The notes below the pieces were generated by a model that was given only the letters and a program-made list of their open reading frames with translations, searched no databases and was not told the DNA's origin. From Pseudonocardia kunmingensis (lineage in GTDB: Bacteria > Actinomycetota > Actinomycetes > Mycobacteriales > Pseudonocardiaceae), in NCBI RefSeq assembly GCF_006716445.1, contig NZ_VFPA01000001.1, positions 1,550,001 through 1,614,000 on the forward strand: a DNA stretch of 64,000 bases, written 5' to 3'. Shown in pieces: positions 9,333 through 54,054 of the stretch; within the stretch, counting starts at the first letter, position 1, and each line of letters starts with the position of its first letter. Both the position numbers and the translations under genes were made by a program.

Positions 9333-11639
<2,307 letters not shown>

Positions 11640-27193: not shown

Positions 27194-27276
27194 CCGGGCG
27201 GGTGAGGTAACGGTCCTGGCCGCCGCGCAGAGCACAGCCTGTGGGACACGGCGGCCACGGATCGGAGGCGACGCTC

Positions 27277-28617
27277 GTGCGCACTCGAATCATCGGCCTG
27301 GCCGTCTGCGCGTCCGCCCTGGCCATCGGCCTGTTCGGGGTGCCGCTCGCGGTGGCGGTGCTCCAGTACGCGATGCAGGTCGAGCGGGGCGAGCTCGCGC
27401 AGACGGCCCGCGCGGTGGCTATCAGGGTGGCCGCGGACGTCTACGACGAGGACGAGGTCGCGAACGTCGAGGTACCCCGTTCGGTCCGGGTGTCGGTGTA
27501 CGACTCGGACGGCGACCGGCTCAGCGCCACCGGGCCGCCCGACGGCGGACCCGAGGTCGCGCGGGCCCTCCAGGGCAGGGCGGGGAGCAGGATGGACGGC
27601 GCTGACCTCGTCGTCGCGGTGCCGGTCACGCACGAGGACGACGTGATCGGTGCGGTGCGCGCCGCCGTTCCCCGCAGCGCCGCCCTGCAGACGGTGGCGC
27701 TGGTGTGGGTGGCGATGGCAGCGCTGGCGGCCCTCGCCGTGGGCGCCGCGTGGCTGGTGGGACGGCGACAGGCCCGGCGGCTCGCGCGCCCGCTCGAGGA
27801 CCTGGCCGTCGCCGCCAGGCGGCTCGGCGACGGCGACTTCAGCGTGCGCACGCGGCCGGGCGGCATCGCCGAGATCGACTCGGTCGGTTCGGCCCTCAAC
27901 TCCACCGCCGGTCGCCTCGACGCCCTGCTCGCCAGGGAGCGCGCGTTCTCCGCCGACGCGTCGCACCAGCTGCGCACCCCGCTCGCCGGGCTCCGCCTGC
28001 GGCTCGAGGCGGCCCTCGAGTCGCCCGGCCGCGACCTCGCACCCGCCATCGCCGCCAGCCTCGTCGACGCGGACCGCCTGGAGTCGACCATCGACGAGCT
28101 GCTCGCACTCGCCCGGGACCAGCGGGCCATCCCGGGCGGCACGGTCGAGCTCTCCGCGCTGCTGGCCGCGATGTCGTCGGAGTGGAGCGGGCGCCTCGCG
28201 CTCCAGGGCCGCGACCTCGCGCTGAGCGTCGATCCGGACACCCCGGACCCGTGCGCGTCGGCCGCGGCGGTCCGGCAGATCCTCGCGGTGCTCGTGGACA
28301 ACGCGACGACCCACGGCGAGGGCACGGTGACGGTGGCGGTCCGGGAGGCCACCGACGCGGTCGCGATCGACGTGGGCGACGAGGGAGCCGGCGTGCACGA
28401 CGCCGAGGGCACCCTGTTCGACCGGCGCGTCGACCGGGAGCGGGGCCGGCACGGGATCGGCCTGGCGCTGGCGCGCCGGCTGGCCGAGGCGGAAGGGGGC
28501 CGCCTGGGCCTGACCCGGCCGTCGCCCCCGATGTTCACCCTCCTGCTGCCCGCCGACCGCTCGGCCGGTCCGCGGGCTCTCCCAGCTCCAGCCGGTACCC
28601 GTAGCCCCGCAGGGTGA
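27277..28617 (+). CDS. Sensor histidine kinase
   Basis: The 446-residue membrane kinase has an N-terminal transmembrane helix (about 5-30), an extracytoplasmic domain (ERGELAQTARAVAIRVAADV), a second helix near 140-165, a HAMP segment (ARPLEDLAVAARRLGDGDFSV), the H-box FSADASHQLRTPLAGLRLRL with the phospho-accepting His, and an HATPase domain with DNATTHGEG, DEGAGVHD and HGIGLALARRLAEAEGG. The GTG at 27277 has GGAGG nine bases upstream. Its partner is probably the response regulator at 28535-29269, encoded on the opposite strand; their 3' ends overlap by 83 bases. Because that regulator ends the diaminopropionate operon, the pair may control it. Confidence 0.92.
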   Translation: MRTRIIGLAVCASALAIGLFGVPLAVAVLQYAMQVERGELAQTARAVAIRVAADVYDEDEVANVEVPRSVRVSVYDSDGDRLSATGPPDGGPEVARALQGRAGSRMDGADLVVAVPVTHEDDVIGAVRAAVPRSAALQTVALVWVAMAALAALAVGAAWLVGRRQARRLARPLEDLAVAARRLGDGDFSVRTRPGGIAEIDSVGSALNSTAGRLDALLARERAFSADASHQLRTPLAGLRLRLEAALESPGRDLAPAIAASLVDADRLESTIDELLALARDQRAIPGGTVELSALLAAMSSEWSGRLALQGRDLALSVDPDTPDPCASAAAVRQILAVLVDNATTHGEGTVTVAVREATDAVAIDVGDEGAGVHDAEGTLFDRRVDRERGRHGIGLALARRLAEAEGGRLGLTRPSPPMFTLLLPADRSAGPRALPAPAGTRSPAG

Positions 28618-29269
28618 CGATCGCGGGAACGCGGGCGGACGCCGGCGGCGCGACCTCCCCGATCTTCCGGCGGAGCGCCGCGACGTGGACGTCGAGCGTC
28701 TTGGTCGAGCCGAACCAGTGCTCGTCCCACACGTCGGACATGAGCGTCTCGCGGCTCAGTGCCACGTCCGGTTCCGCGGCCAGGCGGGCCAGCAGGTCGA
28801 ACTCCTTCGCCCGCAGGCGCAGCTCCCGACCGCCCACGCCCGCCCGGCGGCGGGTCACGTCGACGACGAGGTCACCGACGGCCCGTACCGGCGCCGGCCC
28901 GGCGGCACCCTCGTTGCGCCGCAGGTGGGCGCGGATGCGCGCGTGCAGCTCGGCCAGCCGCACCGGCTTGACCAGGTAGTCGTCGGCGCCCGCCTCCAGG
29001 CCCACGACGACGTCCATCTCCGCCGACCGGGCGGTCAGGACGACGATCACGCAGCCGGGCTGGCCGCGCCGCAGCTGCCGGCAGACCTCGACGCCGTCGA
29101 GGTCGGGGAGCCCGAGGTCCAGCAGCACGAGGTCGACGGCGGCGGCCGCTGCGAGGCCCGCGGCGCCCGTCCGCTCCCACCGGACCTCGAAGGCGTGGCT
29201 GCGCAGGCTCGACGTGAGCACCTCCCCGATGGTCGGGTCGTCCTCGACGAGGAGGATGCGGCCGGCCAT
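28535..29269 (-). CDS. OmpR/PhoB-family response regulator
   Basis: The 244-residue protein has a receiver domain (MAGRILLVEDDPTIG; LVLLDLGLPDLDG with the phospho-acceptor Asp; VLTARSA; GADDYLVKPV with the conserved Lys) and a C-terminal winged helix (ELRLRAKEFDLLARLA, SRETLMSDVWDEHW, KTLDVHVAALRRKIG, VTLRGYGYRLE). The start ATG shares one base with the stop of the upstream PLP-enzyme gene (TGATG), which shows that it is the last gene of the leftward operon. It converges on, and overlaps, the histidine kinase gene. Confidence 0.94.
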   Translation of the reverse strand: MAGRILLVEDDPTIGEVLTSSLRSHAFEVRWERTGAAGLAAAAAVDLVLLDLGLPDLDGVEVCRQLRRGQPGCVIVVLTARSAEMDVVVGLEAGADDYLVKPVRLAELHARIRAHLRRNEGAAGPAPVRAVGDLVVDVTRRRAGVGGRELRLRAKEFDLLARLAAEPDVALSRETLMSDVWDEHWFGSTKTLDVHVAALRRKIGEVAPPASARVPAIVTLRGYGYRLELGEPADRPSGRRAAGG

Positions 29270-30411
29270 CAGCCGCCCGCCATTGCCCGCTCCACCTCGT
29301 CGAGCGTCTCGACGACGGCCACGCGCGCCGGGTCCGCGGGCCCGCCCGCCGTCACCTCCCGGCCGGTGACCAGCAGGACCACGGTCTCCTCCCGGCCCAC
29401 CCGGCGCAGCTCGACGGCGGCGGCGAGCCCTGCGAGGGCCGCCGCCCCCGCGGGTTCGGCGCCGACGCCGGCCGTGGCGGCCAACGTCGCGACCGCGCCC
29501 CGGAGCGCTTCGTCGGTGACCGCCACCATGGCCCCGCCGCCGCGGCGCACCGCGTCCAGCACGGCGTCGCCGATGGCCGGGCGCATCACGGCGATGCCGT
29601 CGGCGACGGTGGCGGCGGGATCCAGATCCGCCGGCCCGACGGGCTCCCCCCGCCACGCCCGCACCAGCGGCTGGCACGGCTGCGCCTGGACCCCGATCAG
29701 GCGCGGTCGCCGCGTGACGAGCCCGTGGCTCTCGAGCTCGGCGAAGCCCTTGTCGAGCGCCACCAGCGTGGGGCCGTCGCCGACCGGGGCGACCAGCACG
29801 TCCGGGACCCGGCGCCCGAGCTGCTCCCACACCTCGAACGCGACGGTCTTCTTCGCCTCGAGCGTGACCGGGTTGGCCCCGGTGTTGCGGTCGAGCCAGC
29901 CGAACGCGGCGGCGGCGGCGCGGGAGAGGTCGACCGCGGCCGCGTAGCCCGCGCGGACCCGGAAGACCCGCGCACCGGCCTGGGTCATCAGCGCCAGCTT
30001 CTCCGGCCGGCAGTCGGTGGAGACGAAGATGGCGGCCCGCATCCCGGCGGCCGCGGCCCCGAACGCGGTGGCCACGGCCGCGTTCCCGGTGGACGCGGTC
30101 GTGATCGTGTCCACCCCGCGCCGCAGGCCGCCCTCGATCACGAGCGCGGTGGCGCGGTCCTTGTTGGAGGCGGTCGGGTTGCGCGTCTCGTCCTTGATCC
30201 ACAGCTGCGGCAGGCCCCAGGCCCGGCGCAGCGCGGGCGCGGGCAGCAGCGGCGTGCCGCCGATCGGCAGCGGGTACCGGATCGGACCGTCGGGCACGGG
30301 CAGCAGCTCCCGGTAGCGCCACATCGTGAACGAGGCGGGCGGGTCCGCCGACCGCATCCACCCGCGCCCGGTCGGCGCCACCACCTCGTCAGCGATCCCT
30401 CCTGCGGTCAC
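29269..30411 (-). CDS. Threonine synthase-like fold-type II PLP enzyme
   Basis: This 380-residue protein resembles threonine/cysteate synthases. It shows PIGGTPLLPAPALRR, then WIKDETRNPTASNKDR with the PLP Lys84, TASTGNAAVATAFGAA for phosphate binding, and a C-terminal GAEPAGAAALAGLAA. It starts at a GTG that overlaps the stop of the membrane acyltransferase gene by four bases and ends on the start of the response regulator. A housekeeping ThrC is unlikely in this setting; it may make or modify a beta-substituted amino acid for the pathway. It is distinct from SbnA, which lies two genes upstream. Confidence 0.85.
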   Translation of the reverse strand: MTAGGIADEVVAPTGRGWMRSADPPASFTMWRYRELLPVPDGPIRYPLPIGGTPLLPAPALRRAWGLPQLWIKDETRNPTASNKDRATALVIEGGLRRGVDTITTASTGNAAVATAFGAAAAGMRAAIFVSTDCRPEKLALMTQAGARVFRVRAGYAAAVDLSRAAAAAFGWLDRNTGANPVTLEAKKTVAFEVWEQLGRRVPDVLVAPVGDGPTLVALDKGFAELESHGLVTRRPRLIGVQAQPCQPLVRAWRGEPVGPADLDPAATVADGIAVMRPAIGDAVLDAVRRGGGAMVAVTDEALRGAVATLAATAGVGAEPAGAAALAGLAAAVELRRVGREETVVLLVTGREVTAGGPADPARVAVVETLDEVERAMAGG

Positions 30412-32156
30412 GGGCAGTTCTCCTCTTCGTAGGAGTCGATGCGCTCTTCCGCCTGGTCCAGCGCACCCTCGTCGGGGGCCTGCACCCCCGGCTCGCCCGC
30501 CTCGGCGAGGGTGTCGGCCACGGAGACGGCGACCGCGTCGCGGATCTCGGCGGGCGCCACGCGCGGCATGTCGGCCAGCGGGCCGCGCGCCTCACCGATG
30601 AACGCCACCGGATCGTCGGGGTGCTGGTCGTCCGCCGCGTCGACCTGCTCCGACAGCACGCAGTACCGGTCGAGGTCGGGTGCGGGGCCGGGGCCGGGGT
30701 CGGCGACGACGGCGGGCGCGGGGTCCGGTGGCGGCGCGGCCGCGGCGGGCGGCGCCGGCGCGGCGACGGTCCCGGCGCCCGCCACCTCGCCCTCCACCGA
30801 CTCCGGTGCGGGCCGGGCCACCAGGACGAGGGCGAGGGCCACCGCTGCCGCGCAGGCCACCGGCACCACGAACTGGGCCACGCGCGTCCCCCGTGCGGCG
30901 GCGCCGCGGTCCGCGGGCGGGTCGCCGGGTCGGCGGGAGAGCCGCTCGGCCAGCCGGCGGCGCGCCGTCCCGGCGACGATCGCGACGACCCGCTCCAGCG
31001 GCCCCTGACCGAGCCAGCGCCGCCAGACCACGGCGAAGACGCCCGCGCCGACGACCATGAGGACGAAGAGCACGACGGGCTCGTCCTCCAGCACGCCGGT
31101 GGCCAGCAGGACCAGGTGCGCGGAGTACAGCGTGAGGGCCATGCTGCCGGCCGCCGCGAACGGCGCCAGCAGGCGGGCCGGGATCCCGGGGCGGGTCAGC
31201 AGCAGCGCCGCACCGAGCACCGCGACGGCGCTGCCGAGGGTGTGCACCAGGTCGACCGTCGTGCCCGAGTGCGGGGCCGGGAGCGCCAGGTACCACCACG
31301 ACGTCGCCGGGTCGGGGTCCCACAGCAGGATCCGGGCCGTCTCGGCGGCGGTGTCGCCGGATGCGCTCCCGGACATCAGCGCGGCGAACCCGCCCAGCGG
31401 GTACAGCACGAGCGCGGACACCAGCCGGGCCAGCACGGCCAGCGCGACGCCGCCGCCGAACAGCCACCACGCCACCCGGCGCGAGGCCAGGTCGAGCCGC
31501 CCGATCGCGAGCCCGGCGCAGAGGTAGGCGAAGTAGACGACGACAGGGTAGGCGCCGGTGACGAACAGCTGGGCCGCCACCCCCAGCGGGTCCTGCACGA
31601 GGGCGGTGAACGTGGGGTCGGAGTCGGGCTCCGGGAGCGGGAGCCCGGCCGCGGCGACCAGCAGGACCGGCCCGGCGACGGCCACCGCGGCGGCCACGCC
31701 TGCCGGCACGGGCGGCGGGCGGCCGATCAGCGGGACGGCGAGCAGGAACAGCACGGCGTAGAACGGCAGGATCCCGTCCACGCCGTTGCGTTCCGAGAGC
31801 GTCCCGAGCGCGAGACCGATCGCCCCGATCAGCAGGGCCCGGACCACCAGCCCGCCGGCCACCGCCGTCCGCGCGGAGCCCCGCACGACGTGGCGTCCGC
31901 CCGAGAGGAACGCCAGGCTGACGCCGGCGACCAGCACGAAGGTCGCTGCCGAGCGGCCTGCGGCGACGAGGGTGGTCGCGGTGGGCGCGTCCTGCTCGTC
32001 GAACGAGTCCAGGACGTGCACGGCCATCATCCCGAGCAGCGCCGCGCCGCGGGCGACGTCCACCCCGACGACGCGCGTCCGGGGCGGGGCCGGGTCGCCG
32101 CTCCGCGTGGCGACGGCGGTCCGCGCGTCGGTGCTCGGATCCGGTGAGATCAGCAT
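30408..32156 (-). CDS. Membrane acyltransferase-like protein (HGSNAT/DUF418 type) with C-terminal external domain
   Basis: The 582-residue protein opens with a cytoplasmic segment and RVVGVDVARGAALLGMMAVHV, the first-helix signature of heparan-glucosaminide acetyltransferase/DUF418 proteins, followed by about ten hydrophobic helices to residue 380. A separate helix (FVVPVACAAAVALALVLVA, near 430) leads through a Pro/Ala/Asp-rich spacer to an external domain of about 100 residues with a Cys near its start (DLDRYCVLSEQ) and one at its end (EEENCP), suggesting a disulphide. Relatives move acyl groups across the membrane to extracellular acceptors. In this operon it could acylate the exported product; this is inference. 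It overlaps the next gene by four bases. Confidence 0.83.
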   Translation of the reverse strand: MLISPDPSTDARTAVATRSGDPAPPRTRVVGVDVARGAALLGMMAVHVLDSFDEQDAPTATTLVAAGRSAATFVLVAGVSLAFLSGGRHVVRGSARTAVAGGLVVRALLIGAIGLALGTLSERNGVDGILPFYAVLFLLAVPLIGRPPPVPAGVAAAVAVAGPVLLVAAAGLPLPEPDSDPTFTALVQDPLGVAAQLFVTGAYPVVVYFAYLCAGLAIGRLDLASRRVAWWLFGGGVALAVLARLVSALVLYPLGGFAALMSGSASGDTAAETARILLWDPDPATSWWYLALPAPHSGTTVDLVHTLGSAVAVLGAALLLTRPGIPARLLAPFAAAGSMALTLYSAHLVLLATGVLEDEPVVLFVLMVVGAGVFAVVWRRWLGQGPLERVVAIVAGTARRRLAERLSRRPGDPPADRGAAARGTRVAQFVVPVACAAAVALALVLVARPAPESVEGEVAGAGTVAAPAPPAAAAPPPDPAPAVVADPGPGPAPDLDRYCVLSEQVDAADDQHPDDPVAFIGEARGPLADMPRVAPAEIRDAVAVSVADTLAEAGEPGVQAPDEGALDQAEERIDSYEEENCP

Positions 32157-32181
32157 CGGACACCCCTGTTCAGCGGTGAGC

Positions 32182-33174
32182 TCACGCCGGACGGGGAACG
32201 GGGGTATGCGTCCGCTCCTCGGTGTCGAGCACGTCCGCGCCGTAGAGGTCCTCCAGCCAGTTCGTCTGGTAGACCGTGTCGAGGTAGCGCTCGCCGAGGT
32301 CCGGTGCCACGGCCACCGCCGTGATCGCGGGCGCCCCGCGCCGGGCCAGCCACCCCATCGCGCCGCTGACCACGGTGCCCGTGGAGCCGCCGAACAGGAA
32401 CCCGCTGCGCGCCAGGCGGTGGCAGGCGCGGATGGTGTCGGCCTCCTCGACGCGCACCACGTCGTCCAGGTAGGACTCGTCCAGCAGCGGCGGGCGGATG
32501 CTCATCCCGAGACCGGGGATCATCCGGCGTCCCGGCGGCCCGCCGAAGGTCACCGAGCCGACGCTGTCCACCGCGACGACCTCCACCCTGCGGTGCCACT
32601 CCCGGAACCAGCGCGCGCAGCCCATCAGCGTCCCGGTCGTGCCCGCGCCGACGAACAGCACGTCCAGCTGCGGGAACTGGCGGGCGATCGCCGGTGCCGT
32701 CGTGCGGTAGTGCGCCATCCAGTTGCCCGGGTTGGCGTACTGGTTGATCCACACGTACCGCTCGTCGGAGGCGCACAGCGCGCGGACGAAGTCGATCCGG
32801 GCGCCGAGGAAGCCACCGACGGGATCCGGCTCGGCGATGATGTGCACGTGGCTGCCCAACGCCTCCATCAGCCGCCGCGTGGAGAGGTTGCAGCGGGAGT
32901 CGGTCACGCACAGGAAGCGGTAGCCCTTGCTCGCCGCGAGCATGCTCAGCGCCACGCCCAGGTTCCCGGACGAGGACTCGACGAGGATCGCCCCGGGCGT
33001 CAGGGCCCCGCTGCGCTCGGCGGCGTCCACCATCTCGGTCGCGGCTTTCAGCTTGATCGAGCCGGCGAAGTTGAACCCCTCGCACTTCAGGAACAGCGAG
33101 CGGCCGTACACCGACTGCAGGTCGACGTAGAGCTCGTCCTCGTTGAACTGGTGCGGGGCGGTGATGACAGGCAC
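32182..33174 (-). CDS. sbnA: SbnA-like N-(2-amino-2-carboxyethyl)-L-glutamate synthase
   Basis: The 330-residue fold-type II PLP protein follows SbnA: DLQSVYGRSLFLKCEGFNF, AGSIKLKAATEMV with the PLP Lys41, ILVESSSGNLGVALSMLAA, CNLSTRRLMEALG, VGAGTTGTLMGCARW, and GRRMIPGLGMSIRPP. In staphyloferrin B synthesis SbnA joins O-phospho-L-serine and L-glutamate; SbnB then releases L-2,3-diaminopropionate. The following gene upstream is SbnB, as in known Dap pathways, which makes the assignment firm. It differs from CysK/CysM in its SIKLKA loop. Gaps of 25 and 37 bases separate it from its neighbours in the leftward operon. Confidence 0.91.
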   Translation of the reverse strand: MPVITAPHQFNEDELYVDLQSVYGRSLFLKCEGFNFAGSIKLKAATEMVDAAERSGALTPGAILVESSSGNLGVALSMLAASKGYRFLCVTDSRCNLSTRRLMEALGSHVHIIAEPDPVGGFLGARIDFVRALCASDERYVWINQYANPGNWMAHYRTTAPAIARQFPQLDVLFVGAGTTGTLMGCARWFREWHRRVEVVAVDSVGSVTFGGPPGRRMIPGLGMSIRPPLLDESYLDDVVRVEEADTIRACHRLARSGFLFGGSTGTVVSGAMGWLARRGAPAITAVAVAPDLGERYLDTVYQTNWLEDLYGADVLDTEERTHTPVPRPA

Positions 33175-33211
33175 GATGCCTACTCCTCATGTGGGTCGAA
33201 CCGCACGGCGC

Positions 33212-34258
33212 TCATCCGTGCCGGCGCAGTTCGTGGAAGAAGTCGTCGATGACGTGCAGGTCGCCGGACCGGGCCAGGTCGTCGTAGACGTACTTGCCGA
33301 CGGCCAGGTCGAGCACCCCGAGGCCGAACGGTGAGAACACCACCGGCCGGTCGTCCGGCACGCTCACGCGCCCGGTGAGCACGTCGTCCAAGGTGCCGTG
33401 CAGGAAGTCGCGGTTGCCGGTGCGCTGCTCGGCCAGGTGCGGCGAGGTGTCGGCCTTCAGGCAGTGGTCGACGTCGTCGACGATGTTGGTCGAGGCGAGC
33501 ACGACCTCGGGGGCGAGGTCCCGCAGCGACACGTGCAGCACCACCGGTGCGTGCGCGAACCACGACACGTCGCTGATGTGCGGCGCCGCGGCCACGGTCG
33601 CGAAGACCACCAGGTCGCTGGACCGGATCAGCTGCTCGGCGCCGTCGTGGACGGTGATCCGGCCGGCCGTGCCGGACTGCTCCAGGTACCCGCAGAACCC
33701 CGCCGCGCTGTCCGCGGACAGGTCGTGCACGCCGATCTCGTCGAACGACCAGCCGGTGCGGGCGAGGAACGTGTGGATGTAGCGGGCGATCAGGCCGGTC
33801 CCGACGAAACCGACCCGGGCCGGGCGCGGCCGCCCGCGGGTGAGCCGGTCGGCCGCCAGCGCCGCCGACGCGGCCGTCCGGGTCGCGCTGATGATCGAGC
33901 TCTCCATGCAGGCCAGCGGGTAGCCGGTGTCGTGGTCGTTGAGGATCAGCACCGCCGAGGCCCGCGGGATGCCGGCCGCCACGTTCCGCGGGAAGCTCGA
34001 GATCCACTTGCACCCGTCCACCCGCACCTGCCCGCCGAGCGAGGCGGGGAGCGCGATGATCCGGGACGACGGGCGGTCGGGGAAGCGTAGGAAGTAGGAC
34101 GGCGGGTTCACCGAGTCCCCGGCGCCGTGCAGCCGGTAGGTGGTCTCGACCAGCTCCACGACCTCCTTCTCGCGTCCCTCCAGCACGCTCCGCACCTGCG
34201 CACCGGAGATCACCGCGAACGGCGGCACCGCGAGCGGCGCGGCGTCGGTGGCCGTCAT
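33212..34258 (-). CDS. sbnB: SbnB-like 2,3-diaminopropionate biosynthesis dehydrogenase
   Basis: This 348-residue protein belongs to the ornithine cyclodeaminase/mu-crystallin fold and matches SbnB: VNPPSYFLRFPDRPSSRIIALPA, CKWISSFPRN, ASAVLILNDHDTGYPLACME, then NAD-binding VGFVGTGLIARYIHTFL and HVSLRDLAPEV. SbnB oxidises the SbnA product with NAD to give L-2,3-diaminopropionate, 2-oxoglutarate and NADH. Its ATG at 34258 overlaps the dioxygenase stop by four bases (ATGA), so the longer open frame upstream is antisense noise and not part of the protein. Confidence 0.92.
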   Translation of the reverse strand: MTATDAAPLAVPPFAVISGAQVRSVLEGREKEVVELVETTYRLHGAGDSVNPPSYFLRFPDRPSSRIIALPASLGGQVRVDGCKWISSFPRNVAAGIPRASAVLILNDHDTGYPLACMESSIISATRTAASAALAADRLTRGRPRPARVGFVGTGLIARYIHTFLARTGWSFDEIGVHDLSADSAAGFCGYLEQSGTAGRITVHDGAEQLIRSSDLVVFATVAAAPHISDVSWFAHAPVVLHVSLRDLAPEVVLASTNIVDDVDHCLKADTSPHLAEQRTGNRDFLHGTLDDVLTGRVSVPDDRPVVFSPFGLGVLDLAVGKYVYDDLARSGDLHVIDDFFHELRRHG

Positions 34259-35256
34259 CGCGGCGCCACCTCCACGGTGGGCGCGCAGTCGGTGAGGCGC
34301 ACCGGGTCGGCCATCCCGACGAGCACCTCCCGCAGTCCCCGGAAGGCCTCCCGGCTGTGGGCGGTGCGGATGTTGTCGACGAGCAGCAGGTCGCCCGACT
34401 GCCACGGCTCGCGGACCGTGGCGGCCTCGTAGGTCTGGTTGAGCAGCTCCACGACGTCCGCGCCGATCGGGTCGCCGTTGCCGAAGCGGGTGGTGAACGG
34501 CAGCCCGTCGGGGCCGTAGACGTCCACCAGGAACTCGCGAACCTCGGGATCGATCGTCCACTCGTTCAGGAACGCGATCTGGTTGAACCAGCAGCGCTCA
34601 CCGGTGACCGGATGGCGCAGCACGGCGCTGCGGCGCTGCTGCGTGCGCAGGCCGCCATCGGGCTGCCAGGCGAAGGCGATGCCGTTGGCCCGGCAGTAGC
34701 TCTCGACCGCGCCCCGGTCGTCGGTGCCGAAGGCCTCGGCGACCGAGGAACCGATGTCGTCGTTGTAGTTGCGCACCAGCAGCCAGCCCTCGCGCTCGAA
34801 CCGGTTGACCAGGTCGAGGGGCAGCGCCGCGAGCACCGCCGCCGCATCGGCCACCCCGGTCGCGCCGCCCTCGGTGGGGGCGGTGCGGCAGGCGAAGAGC
34901 ATCAGGCTCGGGAACTCGAGGGTGTAGCTCAGCTCGTGGTGCATGCACATCGGCTGGTTCGCCGGCCACGCGGAGGAGGAGTACACGCCCTCGCCGTAGG
35001 TCCGCCGCGCGGCGAAGGCCTCCTTCTCGGCCATCAGGCCGGTGGCCAGCCGCCGGAAGACGGCGGCGATCTCGTCCGGGTCGCCCAGCCCGAGGCCGCG
35101 CACCAGGACGCACCCGTGCTCGGTGGTGGCGGCGCGCAGGGCGTCCCGGTGTTCGGCGGCCCAGCCCGGCGCGTCCCCGGTGGCCTCGACCCGCAGCGTC
35201 GGGCGCGCACCGGGACGCAGGTCCAGGTCGAGCAGTGCGGTCGGTGAGGTGGACAT
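34255..35256 (-). CDS. TauD/SyrP-like Fe(II)/2-oxoglutarate-dependent dioxygenase
   Basis: The 333-residue protein has the TauD/TfdA layout of enzymes found in nonribosomal pathways: HGCVLVRGLGL, ANQPMCMHHELSYT with the His106/Glu108 iron ligands, FACRTAPTEGGATGVADA, and LLLVDNIRTAHSREAF with the distal His and the 2-oxoglutarate Arg. SyrP-like members hydroxylate amino acids tethered to a carrier protein. Here the adjacent gene encodes an adenylation-carrier protein, so a carrier-bound amino acid is a plausible substrate. The 2-oxoglutarate made by SbnB is also its co-substrate. The start ATG lies 32 bases after the adenylation gene stop. Confidence 0.88.
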   Translation of the reverse strand: MSTSPTALLDLDLRPGARPTLRVEATGDAPGWAAEHRDALRAATTEHGCVLVRGLGLGDPDEIAAVFRRLATGLMAEKEAFAARRTYGEGVYSSSAWPANQPMCMHHELSYTLEFPSLMLFACRTAPTEGGATGVADAAAVLAALPLDLVNRFEREGWLLVRNYNDDIGSSVAEAFGTDDRGAVESYCRANGIAFAWQPDGGLRTQQRRSAVLRHPVTGERCWFNQIAFLNEWTIDPEVREFLVDVYGPDGLPFTTRFGNGDPIGADVVELLNQTYEAATVREPWQSGDLLLVDNIRTAHSREAFRGLREVLVGMADPVRLTDCAPTVEVAPR

Positions 35257-35288
35257 GTCGTTTCCCTTCGGTTCCGGGCAGGTTCTGG

Positions 35289-37796
35289 TCAGGACGGGGA
35301 CACGAGCGCGGCGGGATGTGGCACGGCGGACCTGCTCTCGATCTCCCGGGCCAGTTCGGCGAGCGTGGGACAACCGGTGATGTCGGCGAGGGACACCTCG
35401 CGCTGCAGGGCGATCACCAGCTTGACCGCCGACAACGAGTCGCCGCCCCGGTCGAAGAAGTGGTCGTGGCGCCCGACCTGGTCCTCCGAGACGCCCAGCA
35501 CCGCCGCCCACGCCGCCGCGACCCGCTGCTCGCTCGGCGAGGCGGGCGCCTCGAAGCCGGTGCCGTCGACGTCGAGCTCGTTCGCCCGGACCGCCAGCGA
35601 CGCCCTGTCGATCTTGCCGTTCGGGGTGAGCGGGAGGCGCTCGCACCAGTGGAGCGCGGACGGCACCATGTACTCGGGCAGCCGTTCGGCCACCACGCGC
35701 CGCAGCACGTCGGCCGCGATCGCCCGCTCCCCCGAGTAGAAGGCCACGAGGCGCTTCCCCGCCGCGGACCCGTCGGCCACCAGCGCGGCGCCGTCACGGA
35801 CGCCGGGCACCCGCAGCAGCGCGTTCTCGACCTCGCTGATCTCGATCCGGAAGCCACGGATCTTGACCTGGTTGTCCCGGCGGCCGAGGAAGTCCAGCGT
35901 GCCGTCCGGCCGCCAGCGGCCGTAGTCGCCGGTCCGGCAGATCCGCCGCCCCGGGTGGTGCGGGTCCGGCCCGAACATCCCCCGCGTGCGCTCCGGGTCG
36001 TTGACGTACCCGCGGCCGACGCAGACGCCGGAGAAGACGATCAGGCCGGGCGCGCCCAGCGGCACGGGTGCCAGGTGCTCGTCGACGACGTAGACGGTCG
36101 TGTTCTGGATGGGCCGGCCCAGCGGGATCCGCGTCCCGTCCGGGGCCCCGTGCAGGACCAGGTGGACGGCGTCGTCCGAGGTCTCGGTCAGCCCGTAGGT
36201 GTTGACGAGCCGGGTGCCGGGCACGGCGGCGAACCACCGCCGCACGAGCTCCTCCTTCAGGAAGTCCCCCGTCGGGCACACGCAGTGCAGGTCCGGCAGC
36301 TCCCTGGGGTGCTGCTCCAGGTGGGACAGCAGGACGTCGAGGTAGGACGGCACGACCTGCAGCACGCCGGCCCGGGCCTCGACGAGCGTGTCGACGAGCC
36401 GCGCGACGTCGAGGACCACGTCCTGCTCGACGAGCAGGGTCGAGCCGCCGACCAGGAGCGCGCCGACCAGCTGCCACACGGAGATGTCGAAGCACTGGGG
36501 ACCGGTCTGCGGGACGACCTCGCCCTCGCGGACCCCGAGGTCGGCGAGCTTGGCCTGGATGTGGTTGAGCATGCCCGCGTGCTCGCACATCGCGCCCTTG
36601 GGCTCACCGGTGGAGCCGGAGGTGAACAGCACGTAGGCCAGCTGGTCCGCCGCGACGGCGAGGCCGAGGTCGTGGTCGGCGTGGCCCTCGGCGTAGGCGG
36701 CGTCGGCGTGCAGCACCCGGACCCCGGGCAGCGTGGCGAGTGCCTGGTCGAGCGTCGTGGTGCTGCCCCGCTCGGTCAGCACGAGCCCGCACCCCGCCCT
36801 CGAGACGGCGGCCGCGATCCGCGCGGGCGGGAAGTGCGGTTCGAGGGGCAGGTAGGTCAGCCCGGCCTTCCAGATCGCCAGCACGGAGGCCATCCAGTCC
36901 AGGTTCCGCTCCATGACGACCGTGACCACGGCTTCGCGCGGCAGACCCCGGGCCCGCAGTGCCCGCGCGAGGCGGTTGGCGCGGGAGTTCAGCTCCCGGT
37001 AGGTCCACCGCCGGGAGCCGTGCACGGCGGCGACGGCGTCCGGGTGCCGCGCGACCCGCTGCTCGAACAGCTCGTGCACGCGCAGGTCCGGCAGCTCCCG
37101 GTGGGGTCCGGCGAGCCCGTCGAGCTGCAGGCGCAGCTCCTGCGCCGAGAGCAGGTTCGCCCGCCCCGGCTCGGCGTCCGGATCGGTCACCATCGCGGTG
37201 AGGGCGCTGCGGTGGTACCCCGCCACGCGCGCCGCCGCGTCCGCGTCGAGGGCGTCGGTGCGGTGCCGCACCCGCAGCACCAGCTCCTCGCCGCGCGGAG
37301 CGATCCCCACCCGCAGGACCACGCCGTCGGGCAGCTCGCCGCGAGCGTGGTCCCCGACGTCGACGACGGTCTCGAACGACGGCCCGGGCAGGCCGAGCTC
37401 GCGCCGCAGGTCGGCGACGGGGAACCCGCGGTGGCGCAGCAGGTCGTCCTCGGCCCGCTGCGCCTCCCGCACCAGCTCCCGCCAGCTGCCGCCCGCCGGG
37501 GTGACCAGCCGGCACGGCACCGGTGCCCCGTCCGGCGGGGCGTAGCCGGTGACGATCTCGCGCTCGCCGGAGAGCGCGGCGTGGACCACGGCGTGCGCGC
37601 CGAGCATGACCGCGCCCAGCCGCACGTCCAGCGCGTCGGCCAGCCGCCGCAGTGCCGCCACGAGGTCGGCGGGGACCGTCTCGACGTGCTCCCCGACGCC
37701 CGGCGCCGGATCGCGGGTCCACCGCGGCACCGTCGCGGCCCCACCCGCCGCGAGCACCCGGCGCCAGTAGTCCCGGCCGGTGTCCGGCATCCCCAT
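35289..37796 (-). CDS. Nonribosomal peptide synthetase: partial condensation - adenylation - carrier
   Basis: The 835-residue protein has three parts. Residues about 1-210 resemble only the C-terminal lobe of a condensation domain (DYWRRVLAAGG to LLSAQE); the HHxxxD lobe is absent. Residues 220-725 form an adenylation domain (LFTSGSTGEPKG, NTYGLTETSDD, TGDYGRWRPDG, NQVKIRGFRIE, PLTPNGKIDR). A carrier domain ends it (HFFDRGGDSLSAVKL). My hand alignment of pocket positions reads D-I-W-Q-C-T-T-D-D-K; the two acidic residues at the base could bind a second amine such as that of diaminopropionate. The ATG at 37796 has GGAGGG upstream; a GTG at 37829 is an alternative. No thioesterase is present. 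Confidence 0.88.
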   Translation of the reverse strand: MGMPDTGRDYWRRVLAAGGAATVPRWTRDPAPGVGEHVETVPADLVAALRRLADALDVRLGAVMLGAHAVVHAALSGEREIVTGYAPPDGAPVPCRLVTPAGGSWRELVREAQRAEDDLLRHRGFPVADLRRELGLPGPSFETVVDVGDHARGELPDGVVLRVGIAPRGEELVLRVRHRTDALDADAAARVAGYHRSALTAMVTDPDAEPGRANLLSAQELRLQLDGLAGPHRELPDLRVHELFEQRVARHPDAVAAVHGSRRWTYRELNSRANRLARALRARGLPREAVVTVVMERNLDWMASVLAIWKAGLTYLPLEPHFPPARIAAAVSRAGCGLVLTERGSTTTLDQALATLPGVRVLHADAAYAEGHADHDLGLAVAADQLAYVLFTSGSTGEPKGAMCEHAGMLNHIQAKLADLGVREGEVVPQTGPQCFDISVWQLVGALLVGGSTLLVEQDVVLDVARLVDTLVEARAGVLQVVPSYLDVLLSHLEQHPRELPDLHCVCPTGDFLKEELVRRWFAAVPGTRLVNTYGLTETSDDAVHLVLHGAPDGTRIPLGRPIQNTTVYVVDEHLAPVPLGAPGLIVFSGVCVGRGYVNDPERTRGMFGPDPHHPGRRICRTGDYGRWRPDGTLDFLGRRDNQVKIRGFRIEISEVENALLRVPGVRDGAALVADGSAAGKRLVAFYSGERAIAADVLRRVVAERLPEYMVPSALHWCERLPLTPNGKIDRASLAVRANELDVDGTGFEAPASPSEQRVAAAWAAVLGVSEDQVGRHDHFFDRGGDSLSAVKLVIALQREVSLADITGCPTLAELAREIESRSAVPHPAALVSPS

Positions 37797-37832
37797 CTCC
37801 TCGTCCCTCCACTCGTCCTCGCGACGCACCGC

Positions 37833-40800
37833 TCACCGCCCCCTCTGCAGCGCGGCCCAGGTGCCGGGCCCCACCGCTCCGTCGACCTGCAGCCCCCGCG
37901 AGGACTGGTAGTCCCGCACCGCCTCGACGGTCGCGGATCCGTAACTGCCGTTGCGCGGCAGCGAACGCCCGAGCGCGACGAGCAGGGCGTGCTGCAGCCG
38001 GTGGACCTCCTCGCCCCGGGAGCCCGCCGCGAGCTCGGGCCGGTCCCCGGCGGCCTCCAGCGCCTGGGCGGTGGACCGGCCGACCGTTCCGGGCGGGTCC
38101 TCGACGACCCCCGCCGCGGCCTGGAAGGCACGCACCGCCGCGACCGTCGGCTCGTCGAACGAGCCGTGGGCGTCCCCCTGGTGGTGACCGAGCCGCTGCA
38201 GGTGCTGCTGGACGGTGACGACCGGCGGCCCGCTGTCACCGACGGCCAGCCCGGCCTCCAGCGACGCGATGTCGGCGAGGCCGAACGAGGCCGTCGCCTC
38301 GGCGGCGGGCGCGGCAGTCGACGCGGCCGCCGCCGCATCCGGGACGGGCGAGGCGGCGGGCGCGGGGGTGGGCGGCGCAACCGGCGGCGCAACCGGTGGC
38401 GGGACCGGCGCGGCGAGCGGCTGCCGCGCGCTCTGCGCCGGCGGCGCGTTGAGCGCGCTCCAGCTGGTGACGACCGTCAGGCCACTGGCCACTCCCAGCG
38501 GCACCAGCGCGGCCGCCAGCCACAGCGGCGGTGCGGACCGGGTCGGGCGCGCCGGTGGCTCCAGTAGCGGCGGCACCGCCGGTGCCGGCGCGACCGGCCG
38601 TCCGGCCCGGATCTCGTGAGCGGGGTTGCCGCCCCACTCCGCGTACGGCGGGACCTCCTCGCCCTTCATGAGGAACGAGTCGGGCGCGAGCACCGCGCCG
38701 TCGCCCATCGTGACGCCGTAGTGGACCAGCGCGTTCACCCCGACCGTGCAGCCGGAACCGATCACGATGCGGTCGGACTTGAAGGCGTAGTCCTCCTGCG
38801 AGTGGCACTGCACCACGGCGCCTTCGTTGAGCGCGACGTCGTCGCCGAACGTCACCAGGTTCTTCTCGGACAGGTCGGCGCCGTCGTCGTAGAGCCGCTT
38901 CCCGACCCGCACGCCCAGCGACCGCCAGAAGAGGCACTTGAACGGGGTGCCGTCGAGGAGCGCGCCCGCCGTCGCGTGCATCTTGTAGAAGCGTTCGACC
39001 CGCCAGAAGTCGCGCTCGTAGATCGAGCAGTAGGTCGGGCGCACCCCGCGGAACCGGGTGGAGGCGCGTTCGACGACCACCTGGTAGCCGATGGTGACCA
39101 GCAGGATCGCGTTGGTGGCCAGCACGATCGACCACTCACCGAGCAGCGCGTAGAGGTCGGTGGCGGCCAGCGCGATCACCGTGATCCCGAAGAACAGGAC
39201 CCAGCTCACCAGCAGGCGCAGCCCGATGGTGGCGGCGTTGTGCCGGTTCTTGGCCGCGAGCCGGCGCCGGAACTCGTCGCCGACCCGCAGGTGGTCGAAC
39301 CGGCTGTCCCGGTCGACGCTGCGCGGGATCTCGAAGCTGGGCGAGCCCAGCAGCCCCACGTTCTCCCGGACCTTCCCGTCGATGGGGACCAGTACCTTCG
39401 TCCCGAGCAGGACGTTCTCCCCGGTCCGCCCGCGGGCGGGGTAGGCGATCAGGTTCCCGAGGAAGTTCTCGCGCCCGATCGACACCCGCGACACCCGGAA
39501 GGACGTGCTGGAGACGCCGACGTTGAGCATCGACAGCCCGTCCGCGACGACGGTCCCGCTGCCCACCGAGCACAGGTAGGGGGAGTCGTGCTTGACGCCC
39601 GTGGCGAAGTTGGAGCCGGTCTGCACGACCGGCGCGAGGTCGTACCCCAGCCAGCGCAGGTAGCCCACGATGTAGGAGCTGTCGCCGAAGAGGTTCGTGT
39701 AGAACCTGCTGTTCGTCGCCCGCTCGACGTACCGGTGGGCCCAGAAGTGGAAGCCGTAGAGGCGGTAGGTCTTCTCCGGGGTGAGCACGAGGTTGACCAC
39801 CCGCGGCACGGTGCCGATGACGAGCAGGCCGAGGAGCAGGGAGCCGAGGAACAGCACGAGGGACGCGGCGAGCGCCTCGACGTAGAGCAGCCAGGTCGTG
39901 AGCGCCAGCGGCCCCGGACCCAGCAGGGTGGCGAGGCGCGGGACCTCGAAGAACACGATGGTCACGCCGCCGATGCCCAGCGGCAGGTACACGACCAGCA
40001 GGGTCAGCAGCTGCACCAGGGAGTAGCTCACCCTGCGCCAGGTGCGGACCCGGCGCGCCGGCACCTCCCGGTAGTCCGCACCGGTCCGCTCCGCGGGCGA
40101 GCCGTGCCAGTTCTCGAAGGCCGGCACGGCCTGCCCGGCGTGGAGGGCGGAGGCGTGGCCGATCTGGGAGCCGTCGCCCATCGAGGTGTCGATGTCGAGC
40201 ACCACCCACTCGCCGACGAACACGCCCCGGCCGAGCGTGACCGGGCCCGTCTCGATCACCCCGGAGCGGGCCCGGTAGCAGCTGAAGAACGTGTCCTTGC
40301 GGATCACCGTGTCCGGCCCGACCGTCAGCAGGTCGGTGCACAGCGGGAAGTGCTTGGAGAAGATCACCGCACCACGCCCGATCCGCGCGCCCAGCGCCCG
40401 CAGGTAGAGCACGTAGAGCGGCGAGCCGACGAACATGACCAGCGGGTTCGCGCGGACGAGGGTCTTGACGAGCCAGAAGCGGACGTAGGCCGGGCTCCAG
40501 ATGCGGATCCGCTGCGCCTTCCACCGGCCGACGAGCAACCACTTGGCCAGGATCGGGAGCAGGCACATCGCGAGGAACGTCCCGCCGGCGAACAGCGCCG
40601 ACCGCAGGTAGATGTCGAGCACACCGGTGGCGGCCGAGACGAACTCGAAGCCGCGCACGGCGACCACGGCGACGGCGTAGGAGTAGCCGAGGTAGAACAG
40701 GACCTGCAGCGCCCCGCAGAGGAGGTACTGCGCCGTGGGGACGGGCGTCGCGACCTCGACCGGCGCGGTCGCCGTCGCCGTCGAACCGCCCGCGGCCGGC

Positions 40801-41330
40801 GTCGAACCCGAGAGCGCGGCCGCCAGGCTCCGGATGCTCGGGTACCGGTAGATGTCCTTCATCGACACCGACGGCAACCCGTCCCGCTTGCGCACCCGGG
40901 CGCAGAACTGCGCCATCACCATCGAGTCCGCACCCAGGTCGTCGAAGAAGTGGCTCTCCACCGACACCCGCTCGACACCCACGACCTCGGCCAGCACCTC
41001 GGCGAACCCGCCCTCGACAGGAGCCGGCGTGACGCCCGGGAACGCCGTGGCCAGGCTCCGGATCGTCGGGTGCTGGTAGATGTCCTTCATCGACACCGAC
41101 GGCAACCCGTCCCGCTTGCGCACCCGGGCGCAGAACTGCGCCATCACCATCGAGTCCGCACCCAGGTCGTCGAAGAAGTGGCTCTCCACCGACACCCGCT
41201 CGACACCCACGACCTCGGCCAGCACCTCGGCGAGCGCACCCTCGACACCGGTCGCCGGGCCGGCGTCCTCGAGCCGTGCGATCTCGGATACGACCGGTTC
41301 GGCCGTCAGTACCTCGAGCTGGTTTCCCAC
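37833..41330 (-). CDS. Pls/PosA-type membrane synthetase with two carrier domains and peptidoglycan-binding tail
   Basis: This 1165-residue protein starts with two almost identical carrier domains whose phosphopantetheine serines are Ser60 and Ser136 (GADSM). Six transmembrane helices follow in three pairs, each pair leading to a soluble left-handed beta-helix-like domain (for example IGRGAVIFSKHF, IGRENFLGNLIAYPA, IGSGCTVGVNALVHYGVTMG). This is the terminal-domain layout of Pls/PosA proteins, which polymerise amino acids through isopeptide bonds. After about residue 930 come a seventh helix (LWLAAALVPLGVASG), a Pro/Ala-rich linker and two peptidoglycan-binding domains (VVTVQQHLQRLGHH, VHRLQHALLVALG, VDGAVGPGTWAALQ). 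The adenylation domain is supplied by the next gene. It opens the leftward operon. Confidence 0.9.
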   Translation of the reverse strand: MGNQLEVLTAEPVVSEIARLEDAGPATGVEGALAEVLAEVVGVERVSVESHFFDDLGADSMVMAQFCARVRKRDGLPSVSMKDIYQHPTIRSLATAFPGVTPAPVEGGFAEVLAEVVGVERVSVESHFFDDLGADSMVMAQFCARVRKRDGLPSVSMKDIYRYPSIRSLAAALSGSTPAAGGSTATATAPVEVATPVPTAQYLLCGALQVLFYLGYSYAVAVVAVRGFEFVSAATGVLDIYLRSALFAGGTFLAMCLLPILAKWLLVGRWKAQRIRIWSPAYVRFWLVKTLVRANPLVMFVGSPLYVLYLRALGARIGRGAVIFSKHFPLCTDLLTVGPDTVIRKDTFFSCYRARSGVIETGPVTLGRGVFVGEWVVLDIDTSMGDGSQIGHASALHAGQAVPAFENWHGSPAERTGADYREVPARRVRTWRRVSYSLVQLLTLLVVYLPLGIGGVTIVFFEVPRLATLLGPGPLALTTWLLYVEALAASLVLFLGSLLLGLLVIGTVPRVVNLVLTPEKTYRLYGFHFWAHRYVERATNSRFYTNLFGDSSYIVGYLRWLGYDLAPVVQTGSNFATGVKHDSPYLCSVGSGTVVADGLSMLNVGVSSTSFRVSRVSIGRENFLGNLIAYPARGRTGENVLLGTKVLVPIDGKVRENVGLLGSPSFEIPRSVDRDSRFDHLRVGDEFRRRLAAKNRHNAATIGLRLLVSWVLFFGITVIALAATDLYALLGEWSIVLATNAILLVTIGYQVVVERASTRFRGVRPTYCSIYERDFWRVERFYKMHATAGALLDGTPFKCLFWRSLGVRVGKRLYDDGADLSEKNLVTFGDDVALNEGAVVQCHSQEDYAFKSDRIVIGSGCTVGVNALVHYGVTMGDGAVLAPDSFLMKGEEVPPYAEWGGNPAHEIRAGRPVAPAPAVPPLLEPPARPTRSAPPLWLAAALVPLGVASGLTVVTSWSALNAPPAQSARQPLAAPVPPPVAPPVAPPTPAPAASPVPDAAAAASTAAPAAEATASFGLADIASLEAGLAVGDSGPPVVTVQQHLQRLGHHQGDAHGSFDEPTVAAVRAFQAAAGVVEDPPGTVGRSTAQALEAAGDRPELAAGSRGEEVHRLQHALLVALGRSLPRNGSYGSATVEAVRDYQSSRGLQVDGAVGPGTWAALQRGR
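40847..41233 (-). repeat. Perfect 159-base direct repeat encoding the tandem carrier domains
   Basis: Bases 40847-41005 and 41075-41233 are identical over 159 positions with a period of 228 bases (76 codons). They cover the carrier core from the helix before GADSM to the end of the following helices. The flanking 69 bases that complete each unit differ. The lack of even silent changes points to recent duplication or gene conversion. Confidence 0.95.
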
Positions 41331-41796: not shown

Positions 41797-42582
41797 CTAG
41801 GCGCGCGGCCCGCTCCGCCAGGGCATCCACGGGGTCCGGCCCGCCTGGTACATCGCCTCGAGGGCGTGCCGCTCCTTCACCGTGTCGGCCGGGTGCCAGA
41901 AGCCGTGGTACGGGTAGGCGATGAGCCGCCCCTCCTTCGCCAGGACCGCGCAGGCGTCCGCCACGAGATCGCCGTTCTCCGGGAGGTAGTCGAACACCTC
42001 CTGGCGCAGCACCAGGTACCCGCCGTTCTCCTGCAACCGCATGTCCTTGAGCGCGGTGATCGCCTCCACCCGCCGGTCCTCGCCCATGTCGACCACGTGG
42101 AACGCCGCCTGCGGGGGCACGGCCAGCAACTGCCCCACCGCATCCGGGGTGGCGGCGAACTGGGCGATCATCGCGTCGATCGGGGCGTCGGTGAGGACGT
42201 CGGCGTAGTTGGCGAGGAACATCTCCTCGCCCGCGACGTGCTCGCGGACCCGGCGGAGCCGTTCACCGATGGGCGAGTCCTGGCCGGTGTCGACGAACGT
42301 GATCGACCAATCGGCGATATCGCTGCTCAAGAGCTGGACCTGCCCGCCCCGCAGCACGAAGTCGTTCGACGCCGCCTCCTGGTAGTCCAGGAAGAAATTC
42401 TTGATGTGGTGCCCGCCGTAGCCGAGGCACAGCACGAAGTCGGTGTGCCCGAAGTGGGCGTAGTAGCGCATCACGTGCCACAGCAGCGGACGCGGGCCGA
42501 CCGTCACCATCGGCTTGGGCGTGTCCGAGGCGCCGTCACGCATCCGCATTCCGTAGCCGCCGCAGAACAGCACTACCTTCAT
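41797..42582 (-). CDS. Sugar-1-phosphate nucleotidyltransferase (RfbF-like)
   Basis: This 261-residue protein begins MKVVLFCGGYGMRMRD, the nucleotide-binding loop of the sugar nucleotidyltransferase family, with KPMVTVGPRPLLWHVMRYYAHFGH next. FVLCLGYGGHHIKNFFLDY and FLANYADVLTDAP place it near glucose-1-phosphate cytidylyltransferases; GFWHPADTVKERHALE ends the core. It should make an NDP-sugar for the neighbouring polysaccharide genes. The exact nucleotide and sugar cannot be read from the sequence. The ATG at 42582 is used because the conserved loop starts there. Confidence 0.87.
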   Translation of the reverse strand: MKVVLFCGGYGMRMRDGASDTPKPMVTVGPRPLLWHVMRYYAHFGHTDFVLCLGYGGHHIKNFFLDYQEAASNDFVLRGGQVQLLSSDIADWSITFVDTGQDSPIGERLRRVREHVAGEEMFLANYADVLTDAPIDAMIAQFAATPDAVGQLLAVPPQAAFHVVDMGEDRRVEAITALKDMRLQENGGYLVLRQEVFDYLPENGDLVADACAVLAKEGRLIAYPYHGFWHPADTVKERHALEAMYQAGRTPWMPWRSGPRA

Positions 42583-42706
42583 CTGCCGCACCCCCCTCGA
42601 CGTCGGGACCGGACGGCCCGTCAGCGATCGTCTACTCGGCCCGTCGCGCGAGCCCGTTACGCCGGCTCGTTCCCGCACCGCGACCGGCCGGACCGTCCGA
42701 CCGACC

Positions 42707-43642
42707 TCACGTCATGTCGGGGGCGCCCAGCCACAGACCGCGGACGTAGGCCGCGTGCTCCCGGGCGGTCACCGCGCGGCCGCGGAGTCGCGCAGCCACC
42801 CGCCGGGCGAAGTAGCCCGCGGTGAGGGCCAGCCGGATGCCGAGCGCCGTCCCGGCGCCGTTGTACCGGCGCACGTAGCTCATCATCGACGCGGCCCTGA
42901 GCCGGACCATCCGTTCCCGGCCGTCCCCGGAGCCGGTGCCGCCGTGCAGGACGACCATGTCGGTGAGGAGCACCTGGCGCAGGCCCGCGGCGCGGACCCG
43001 CCTGCCGTACTCGACGTCCTCGCTGTAGACGAAGTAGCTCTCGTCGAAGCCCCCGAGCTCGCGGAAGTGCCGCATGGACATCGCCATGCACGCGCCGCCG
43101 AGCCAGTCGAGCTCGAGGGGACGGCCGCGCCGCGGCCGCGCCCAGAGCCCTGCCGTCGGGAACAGCTTGTGCGCACCCGTCGCGTGCACGAGCGCCCGTG
43201 CCGCGGTCGGTTCCCAACCGCCGACCCCGATCTCCGCGCGCCCGTCGTGGTCGGCGGTCATGGCGCACACGACCGCGAGGTCGTCGCCGCGCGCGAGCGT
43301 CGCGGCCAGGCCGTCGAGCTGGGTGGGCGTGGGCCGGCTGTCCGGGTCGACGAAGATCACGGTGTCGTACCCGGAACTGCGTGCCCCGAGGTTCGCGCCC
43401 GCGGCGTACCCCCGCCCCGGCCCGTCGAGGTAGCGGGTGGCAGGCCGGTTCGCGACGAGCTCCGCGAGGCCGTCCGCGCCGTGGGCGTTGTCGACGACCA
43501 CGGCGGGCAGATCGGCGGGGAGGCTCGCCAGGAGGGCCTCGACCAGCGGACGGCTGTGGTAGGCGACGAGCACCAGCTCGTAGTCGTAGCGGCGGCGCCC
43601 GGCGGGCGCGAGCGCGAGGAGGTCGGTGGCCTGAGCGTCCAT
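42707..43642 (-). CDS. Glycosyltransferase family 2, rhamnosyltransferase-like
   Basis: The 311-residue GT-A enzyme has YELVLVAYHSRPLVEALLASL, VVVDNAHGADG, a donor motif VIFVDPDSRPTPTQ, and LDWLGGACMAMSMRHFRELGGFDESYFVYSEDVEYGRR, typical of rhamnosyltransferase-like members that attach deoxysugars to lipid-linked glycans. A basic C-terminal segment follows, with no membrane span. It is divergent from the gene at 43718, with 75 bases between starts, and probably forms a leftward unit with the nucleotidyltransferase 124 bases downstream. Confidence 0.88.
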   Translation of the reverse strand: MDAQATDLLALAPAGRRRYDYELVLVAYHSRPLVEALLASLPADLPAVVVDNAHGADGLAELVANRPATRYLDGPGRGYAAGANLGARSSGYDTVIFVDPDSRPTPTQLDGLAATLARGDDLAVVCAMTADHDGRAEIGVGGWEPTAARALVHATGAHKLFPTAGLWARPRRGRPLELDWLGGACMAMSMRHFRELGGFDESYFVYSEDVEYGRRVRAAGLRQVLLTDMVVLHGGTGSGDGRERMVRLRAASMMSYVRRYNGAGTALGIRLALTAGYFARRVAARLRGRAVTAREHAAYVRGLWLGAPDMT

Positions 43643-43717
43643 CGGTTCCTTCCGGGGAGGGAGGCGGAACATCCTGGAGCAGGCTCGCGGTCGCGGGGCG
43701 AACGTTACGGTGCGCGG

Positions 43718-45459: not shown

Positions 45460-45538
45460 TCGGGAGAGCCCAGCGATCTCGGGGGACCTGCGGGCACCGC
45501 AGTAGCTCCCGGCTGCCAGTTGACGAAGGAGCCGCGGC

Positions 45539-49424: not shown

Positions 49425-49476
49425 ACCAGCGGCGATGCGCTCCCGCTGCCGATCTTCGTACGGGTTTTGAGGTGAC

Positions 49477-52351: not shown

Positions 52352-52367
52352 CGGTGCGCGGCCTTCC

Positions 52368-53813: not shown

Positions 53814-54054
53814 CCCCCCGAGCCCCGTGCGACGACTGGTGTCGCTCCTGCAAGCTCGGTGACGGTCGGAGGAACGTTTCATCTCGCACGGCCCCCGCGG
53901 TGGAGGCCCGCGCGCTTACCCCGGTTGCGCTGCGTCGATGGGCCGAACGTCGGCATTCACTACGTGTGTCTGCGCCCCGTCGTTAACACGTGCGGCCCAG
54001 GCTCCGAACGACGGATGTACCCGCTGCAGGCGGGGCCGCGAGGGGGGAACACCG

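Follow-up and report, generated by a model that had tools for sequence, protein, structure and literature searches.

We describe an eight-gene operon of Pseudonocardia kunmingensis (positions 28535-41330, all on the minus strand, of the 64,000-nucleotide stretch analysed here, hereafter the window) which, judged from sequence, probably makes a chemically altered polymer or short peptide of L-2,3-diaminopropionate (Dap) at the cell envelope. We read it as encoding a trans-fed membrane polyamino-acid synthetase that would have lost its own loading domain, Dap being loaded and oxidised on a separate carrier and then handed over, and we give this reading a probability of about 0.55. Gene content, domain make-up, the absence or decay of the adenylation domain in cis and the conservation of the cassette are direct observations on the DNA.

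A five-gene cassette shared by many actinobacteria

All eight genes match family profiles. From the right, the first five encode a membrane synthetase of the Pls/PosA family that has no adenylation domain (Pls; 37833..41330; TIGR02353, 708 bits against a cut-off of 423.1), a protein that combines half of a condensation domain with an adenylation domain and a carrier (C*-A-T; 35289..37829; assigned by profile and structure), a TauD-family Fe/2-oxoglutarate oxygenase (TauD; 34255..35256; profile and invariant residues), and the Dap synthesis proteins SbnB (33212..34258) and SbnA (32182..33174), both of which score above the cut-offs of their curated equivalog models (TIGR03944, 424 bits against 327, and TIGR03945, 387 bits against 350, respectively). 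With the annotated starts, neighbours overlap by 1-4 bases or are separated by gaps of 3-37 bases, and an alternative later ATG of the C*-A-T gene (37790) would bring one gap to 42 bases. Coordinates and profiles thus bear out the eight closely spaced leftward genes of a preliminary description of this DNA. Chance open reading frames (ORFs) were rejected as an explanation, given the family support for all eight genes and the recurrence of the core in many genomes.

Pls, C*-A-T, TauD, SbnB and SbnA form a core cassette common to many actinobacteria. In the genus, TauD was found at E <= 1e-40 in 43 of 62 genomes and at 66 places, of which all but that of the window were analysed: these 65 loci contain Pls in 54 cases, C*-A-T in 48, SbnB in 47, SbnA in 42, and all five genes in 35. 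Among the 51 genus loci of at least 15 kb, 47 have Pls and 32 the complete core; the three weakest TauD matches (33-40%) have no Pls. A second set of 80 named loci, the best 80 of 494 relatives and hence biased to close kin, gave Pls in 69, C*-A-T in 71, SbnB in 68, SbnA in 64 and the complete core in 58, once matches that belong to other genes had been set aside (five of 76 for the adenylation protein, at 27-28%, and one for SbnA, at 32%); in the 60 named loci of at least 15 kb, Pls is always present and the core is complete in 53. Class-wide, TauD occurs at E <= 1e-80 in 9 of 118 genomes, the window's own included, and nine other class-wide loci carry Pls (5), C*-A-T (8) and the complete core (4). 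The cassette was also found in Streptomyces, Amycolatopsis and Kutzneria genomes, and in most loci the TauD gene lies between the loader and SbnB. When neighbouring genes were clustered into families without annotation, no family beyond the core occurred in more than 11 loci, and the one in 11 loci looks like an antisense ORF. Named loci on the same contigs were dropped, six from the pocket-code set and tree and eight from the decay survey (see below), while L156/L181 (same contig, no Pls) were retained in the decay survey, L135/L179 in both code sets, and the near-identical L195/L196 as well. The split synthetase, which the preliminary description counted among the features that set this locus apart, and the oxygenase therefore belong to a widespread cassette; its proposal that a split Pls-type synthetase makes a Dap isopeptide or polymer, perhaps an oxidised one, is still the best reading and is strengthened by the comparison.

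The window operon (C1:1578535-1591330), part of a 9.1 Mb genome, has a paralog about 34 kb away on the same contig (L007, C1:1534726-1544375; L007:3727-13376), which consists of SbnA, a Pls with a degenerate adenylation domain, C*-A-T, TauD and SbnB. The related genome G010 likewise holds both kinds of operon. The closest relative of the window locus is L069, and the same matches are found in L089 (NZ_NKYF01000013.1, Pseudonocardia sp. MH-G8). We note that cassette genes also lie on contigs of metagenome-assembled genomes labelled Rokubacteria, Betaproteobacteria, Acidobacteria, Verrucomicrobia and Pseudogulbenkiania (L118, L142, L157, L164, L167), by either transfer or binning error; several such genomes are represented in the set of 80 named loci.

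Loss of the adenylation domain from Pls

The window Pls contains a complete TIGR02353 membrane domain (residues 204-904, model positions 1-695 of 695) and two PP-binding carriers with two LGADS motifs, and neither profile search nor inspection of its sequence revealed an adenylation domain. Of the features of the Pls/PosA family it therefore has the membrane domain and the serine-site carrier and lacks the adenylation domain in the same protein, and we regard the system as a putative trans-fed Pls variant, Pls-like except for cis adenylation. Hydropathy indicates approximately six transmembrane segments in the membrane domain and one more at residues 936-954, after which come two peptidoglycan-binding (PG_binding_1) stretches at the C-terminus. 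The doubled carrier and wall-binding tail mentioned in the preliminary description are thus both present; the tail would lie outside the cell if the carriers are cytoplasmic. A PDB search with the whole protein returned matches limited to the carrier and peptidoglycan-binding pieces.

The absence of this domain was surveyed in 143 loci with a TauD of at least 50% identity, 121 of which have a Pls nearby. Where Pls and C*-A-T both accompany TauD (n = 105), the cis adenylation domain is absent in 76 cases, a relic in 23, cut by the contig end in 6 and intact in none; where C*-A-T is missing (n = 16), the corresponding figures are 8, 7, 1 and 0. The A3, A8 and A10 patterns are missing from all 30 relics, and in the aligned relics the C-terminal subdomain, including the catalytic lysine, is gone; the alignment covered ten of the 30, with the L080 row misaligned, and the remainder were judged by motif patterns. 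As a control, we took 15 other Pls of the genus with ORFs of canonical length (L240, a 16th region, was excluded for lack of a match). Fourteen of them keep all three motifs and one lacks the A3 pattern only, and neither TauD nor SbnB was found near them in the stretches examined; loss of adenylation thus tracks the oxygenase locus. In the genome that holds the window, a third Pls, encoded on contig 2 (L008), keeps its adenylation motifs intact. We also rejected the idea of a divergent yet functional adenylation domain in cis, since none is present in the Pls of the window and all three motifs are missing from the 30 relics.

Two observations concern loci with other gene contents. In L088, L212, L213, L214, L215 and L217 a Pls with a degenerate adenylation domain lies beside TauD, with no C*-A-T or Dap genes within approximately 10 kb. 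In L073 (11888-13841), and similarly in six loci, an AMP-ligase gene with an adjacent small carrier-protein gene is found near TauD-Pls loci.

A separate loader and its predicted substrate

The adenylation domain of C*-A-T has intact core motifs. The first 240 residues of C*-A-T were predicted by AlphaFold with a pLDDT of 90, and in Foldseek they matched condensation domains with TM scores of 0.66-0.78 when normalised to the query and about 0.4 when normalised to targets that are single condensation domains; because of the latter value we interpret them as one condensation lobe. A consensus of 78 sequences shows no HHxxxDG motif, so that neither both lobes nor the motif of a functional condensation domain were found in C*-A-T.

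The pocket code of the window loader is DIWQVPTDDK, and 113 of 114 full codes, 82 and 32 from two sets with one contig in both, read DIWQxxxDDK. Pocket positions were assigned manually on the basis of GrsA numbering and agree with an alignment to LgrA. The pattern is akin to DVWQMIGDDK, which is reported for beta-hydroxy-2,4-diaminobutyrate in an account that finds Dap and 2,4-diaminobutyrate (Dab) codes 80% alike (PMC12283262); the likeness was drawn to this code and not to Dap codes proper. Dap is our first choice as substrate, since SbnA and SbnB are encoded in the operon, although this is not proof.

A candidate carrier-dependent oxygenase

H106, E108, H300 and R309 are invariant in 14 TauD sequences. 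By analogy with DdaC, the dapdiamide oxygenase, we take H106-x-E108 and H300 to form the triad and R309 to be the arginine that binds 2-oxoglutarate. SyrP is an oxygenase of the DdaC kind that acts on carrier-bound residues. The closest solved sequences to TauD are At3g21360 and a TauD/TfdA-like protein; it is from the gene neighbourhood that we infer action of TauD on a carrier-bound aminoacyl unit.

A precedent is the synthesis of dapdiamide, in which the carrier protein DdaD holds N-beta-fumaramoyl-Dap while DdaC oxidises it there (PMC12451424). DdaC resembles TauD in being an Fe/2-oxoglutarate oxygenase that acts on a Dap derivative held by a separate carrier protein, and in its length and residue positions (329 amino acids, His298 and Arg307, versus 333 amino acids, H300 and R309), the likeness being one of length and position rather than of compared sequences. 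Unlike what we propose for the window, dapdiamide Dap is acylated and epoxidised on the acyl group, DdaD has 578 amino acids, and the pathway as described includes no Pls (PMC12451424). In sulfazecin, the 2-oxoglutarate oxygenase SulO hydroxylates C-3 of the beta-lactam in a Dap-derived unit; that system differs from the window in being a modular nonribosomal peptide synthetase (NRPS) in which, by the published account, SulO acts on the monobactam and methylation follows (PMC6097109).

Proposed mechanism and its weighing

In the mechanism that we propose, SbnA and SbnB would make Dap, which the C*-A-T adenylation domain would activate and load onto its own carrier. TauD would then hydroxylate or desaturate the carrier-bound unit, which would pass from C*-A-T to the Pls carriers, and the Pls membrane domain would link units via their amino groups, yielding a polymer or short isopeptide located at the membrane. 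The peptidoglycan-binding tail that Pls has in the window lineage would face outward, and accessory genes may alter the monomer, the product or its expression. The cassette is best read as DdaD/DdaC-like chemistry coupled to poly-Dap synthesis.

Several points weigh against this scheme. The core is incomplete in 19 of the 51 long genus loci, and the shortfall in the named-locus or genus counts (13/65) stems only partly from short contigs; C*-A-T and the Dap genes are missing from some TauD-Pls loci (L088, L212-L217); the pocket code does not separate Dap from Dab; and the scheme calls for a putative transfer between the carriers of two proteins. In addition, hydroxylating free Dap at its beta-carbon would be difficult chemistry with an unstable product, for which reason oxidation at the alpha position, desaturation, or oxidation of an already acylated unit may be more probable. 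We put the reading no higher than about 0.55, given that between a fifth and a third of the long loci are short of some core gene or that the search set favours close kin.

Among known polymer systems, that of Streptomyces albulus PD-1 is close: like the window operon, it combines a Pls-type membrane domain and a carrier with Dap from SbnA/SbnB-like proteins. Its synthetase is a single protein with an adenylation domain, a carrier and seven transmembrane segments, and the Dap genes (NjxA/NjxB) are not located with it; it thus differs from the window in its adenylation in cis and its unclustered Dap genes, and the account consulted mentions no oxygenase (PMC4668381). The delta-poly-L-ornithine synthetase PosA, also of the TIGR02353 type and also making a polymer of a diamino acid, has its own cis adenylation domain, unlike the window Pls, and uses ornithine (PMC10522769). 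In the literature covered, bacterial cationic polyamino acids are made of unmodified monomers by self-loading enzymes, and we found no description of the cassette in the open-licence literature searched.

One alternative is that the operon makes an unmodified beta-poly-Dap or a comb-like Dap-Dap polymer, with the oxygenase finishing the product or acting elsewhere. S. albulus has been shown to make poly-Dap with a Pls-type enzyme and SbnA/SbnB-like proteins (PMC4668381), a comb-like Dap polymer comes from an epsilon-polylysine-producing Streptomyces (Takehara 2021, as cited in PMC10522769 and PMC9606270), and the pairing of two carriers with a loader of its own protein might suit a branched product. 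However, the usual place of TauD between the loader and SbnB, and its presence beside Pls without Dap genes, fit a role in the monomer or polymer and not that of a chance neighbour, and we consider an unmodified product rather unlikely.

In two class genomes (L175:7404-13155 and L176:6322-12459), C*-A-T, TauD, SbnB and SbnA adjoin large predicted NRPS genes with no Pls within the stretch. The four genes may form a transferable module that supplies oxidised Dap. The NRPS genes were predicted without domain annotation and gave no link to a known product. In S. scabies, an SbnB (C9YUJ1) encoded near sbnA and an NRPS gene is reported to be overproduced in the presence of potato tubers (PMC11479980).

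If the unit is not tied to polymers, as the NRPS loci suggest, Pls might, instead of polymerising, attach a single oxidised Dap unit or a small number of them to a different molecule, for example a small peptide or part of the wall. A thioesterase domain fused after the loader in 44 of the 80 named loci and the peptidoglycan-binding domains of the window Pls would also suit such a role. Nevertheless, the membrane domain is full-length and high-scoring, studied members of the family polymerise in the accounts consulted (PMC4668381, PMC10522769), the window loader has no thioesterase and the tail is confined to three loci, which makes a non-polymerising Pls improbable.

Should the trans-fed, oxygenase-coupled reading be correct, the conserved system would open a way to modified cationic polymers and would show how Pls enzymes can receive new monomers. 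With it one could ask directly if the membrane domain takes over a unit delivered by a foreign carrier; the cassette's presence in Streptomyces, Amycolatopsis and Kutzneria eases such work, and the product of the L175/L176 NRPS clusters could reveal the monomer. A bolder form of the reading remains tentative, with the odds against it: an apparently undescribed, widespread synthetase class whose loading domain was lost because its monomer needs prior oxidation on a separate carrier, making an oxidised Dap polymer (for instance alpha-hydroxy- or dehydro-Dap) that in the window lineage would be wall-held and contain a second, beta-methylated diamino acid.

Accessory features of the window lineage

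Beyond the core, the operon encodes a membrane protein with a weak HGSNAT_cat match, possibly an acyltransferase (30408..32156), a threonine-synthase-like pyridoxal phosphate enzyme (PLP2; 29269..30411) and an OmpR-type response regulator (28535..29269; profile match). A histidine kinase gene (27241..28617, plus strand; profile match) converges on the regulator gene with an overlap of 83 bases and probably encodes its partner; the arrangement recurs in L069. The HGSNAT_cat match (41 bits) suggests that the product may be acylated.

Of the 82 loci that gave a full code, 12 share the code of the window loader (the PT code), and the PLP2 gene is present in 11 of these versus 0 of the 70 others; in the second set, none of the 32 full codes is PT and none of the loci with these codes has the gene. 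The 12 loci form one clade with a support of 100 that spans Pseudonocardia, Amycolatopsis, Kutzneria, Kibdelosporangium and Actinoplanes. One could suppose that the loader of this lineage takes another diamino acid, for instance 2,3-diaminobutyrate, made by amine addition by PLP2 followed by SbnB. Against this, a single clade represents a single event, and the association of PT code and PLP2 appears to be one event kept over five genera. PLP2 also falls below the cut-offs of the threonine synthase models shown (best 240 of 303 bits; TIGR00260, 152 of 167 bits), L151 has the PT code with no PLP2 gene found there, and L113, L172 and L184 have the gene but no readable code. A different diamino acid in this lineage is therefore doubtful, and Dap stays our preferred substrate.

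The peptidoglycan-binding tail was seen in three loci only: the window, L069/L089 and L197 (G017:C60). The Pls of L197 has the tail together with the code DIWQVAADDK, also that of the paralog L007, so that tail and PT code are separate traits. This distribution led us to reject the tail as a defining feature. The HGSNAT-like gene (4 of 80 named loci) and the closely similar regulator with its kinase (1 of 80) were rejected likewise. The doubled carrier, tail and regulator by which the preliminary description set the locus apart do exist, but the tail, the threonine-synthase-like and acyltransferase-like genes and the close regulator belong to a minority of loci. Two-component genes near other Pls are distantly similar (L008: regulator 44%, kinase 32%); such pairs are common, hence nothing is drawn from them. 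The region upstream of the window operon has conserved blocks in common with its L069 ortholog, and no clear operator was seen in this comparison.

Neighbouring genes

To the right of the operon, positions 41797-53882 hold glycosyltransferase, bacterial sugar transferase, cellulase-like and GMC oxidoreductase genes and look like a surface-polysaccharide region. At positions 9333-11555, a single protein combines apiosidase-like, collagen-binding-like and transglycosylase-like domains.

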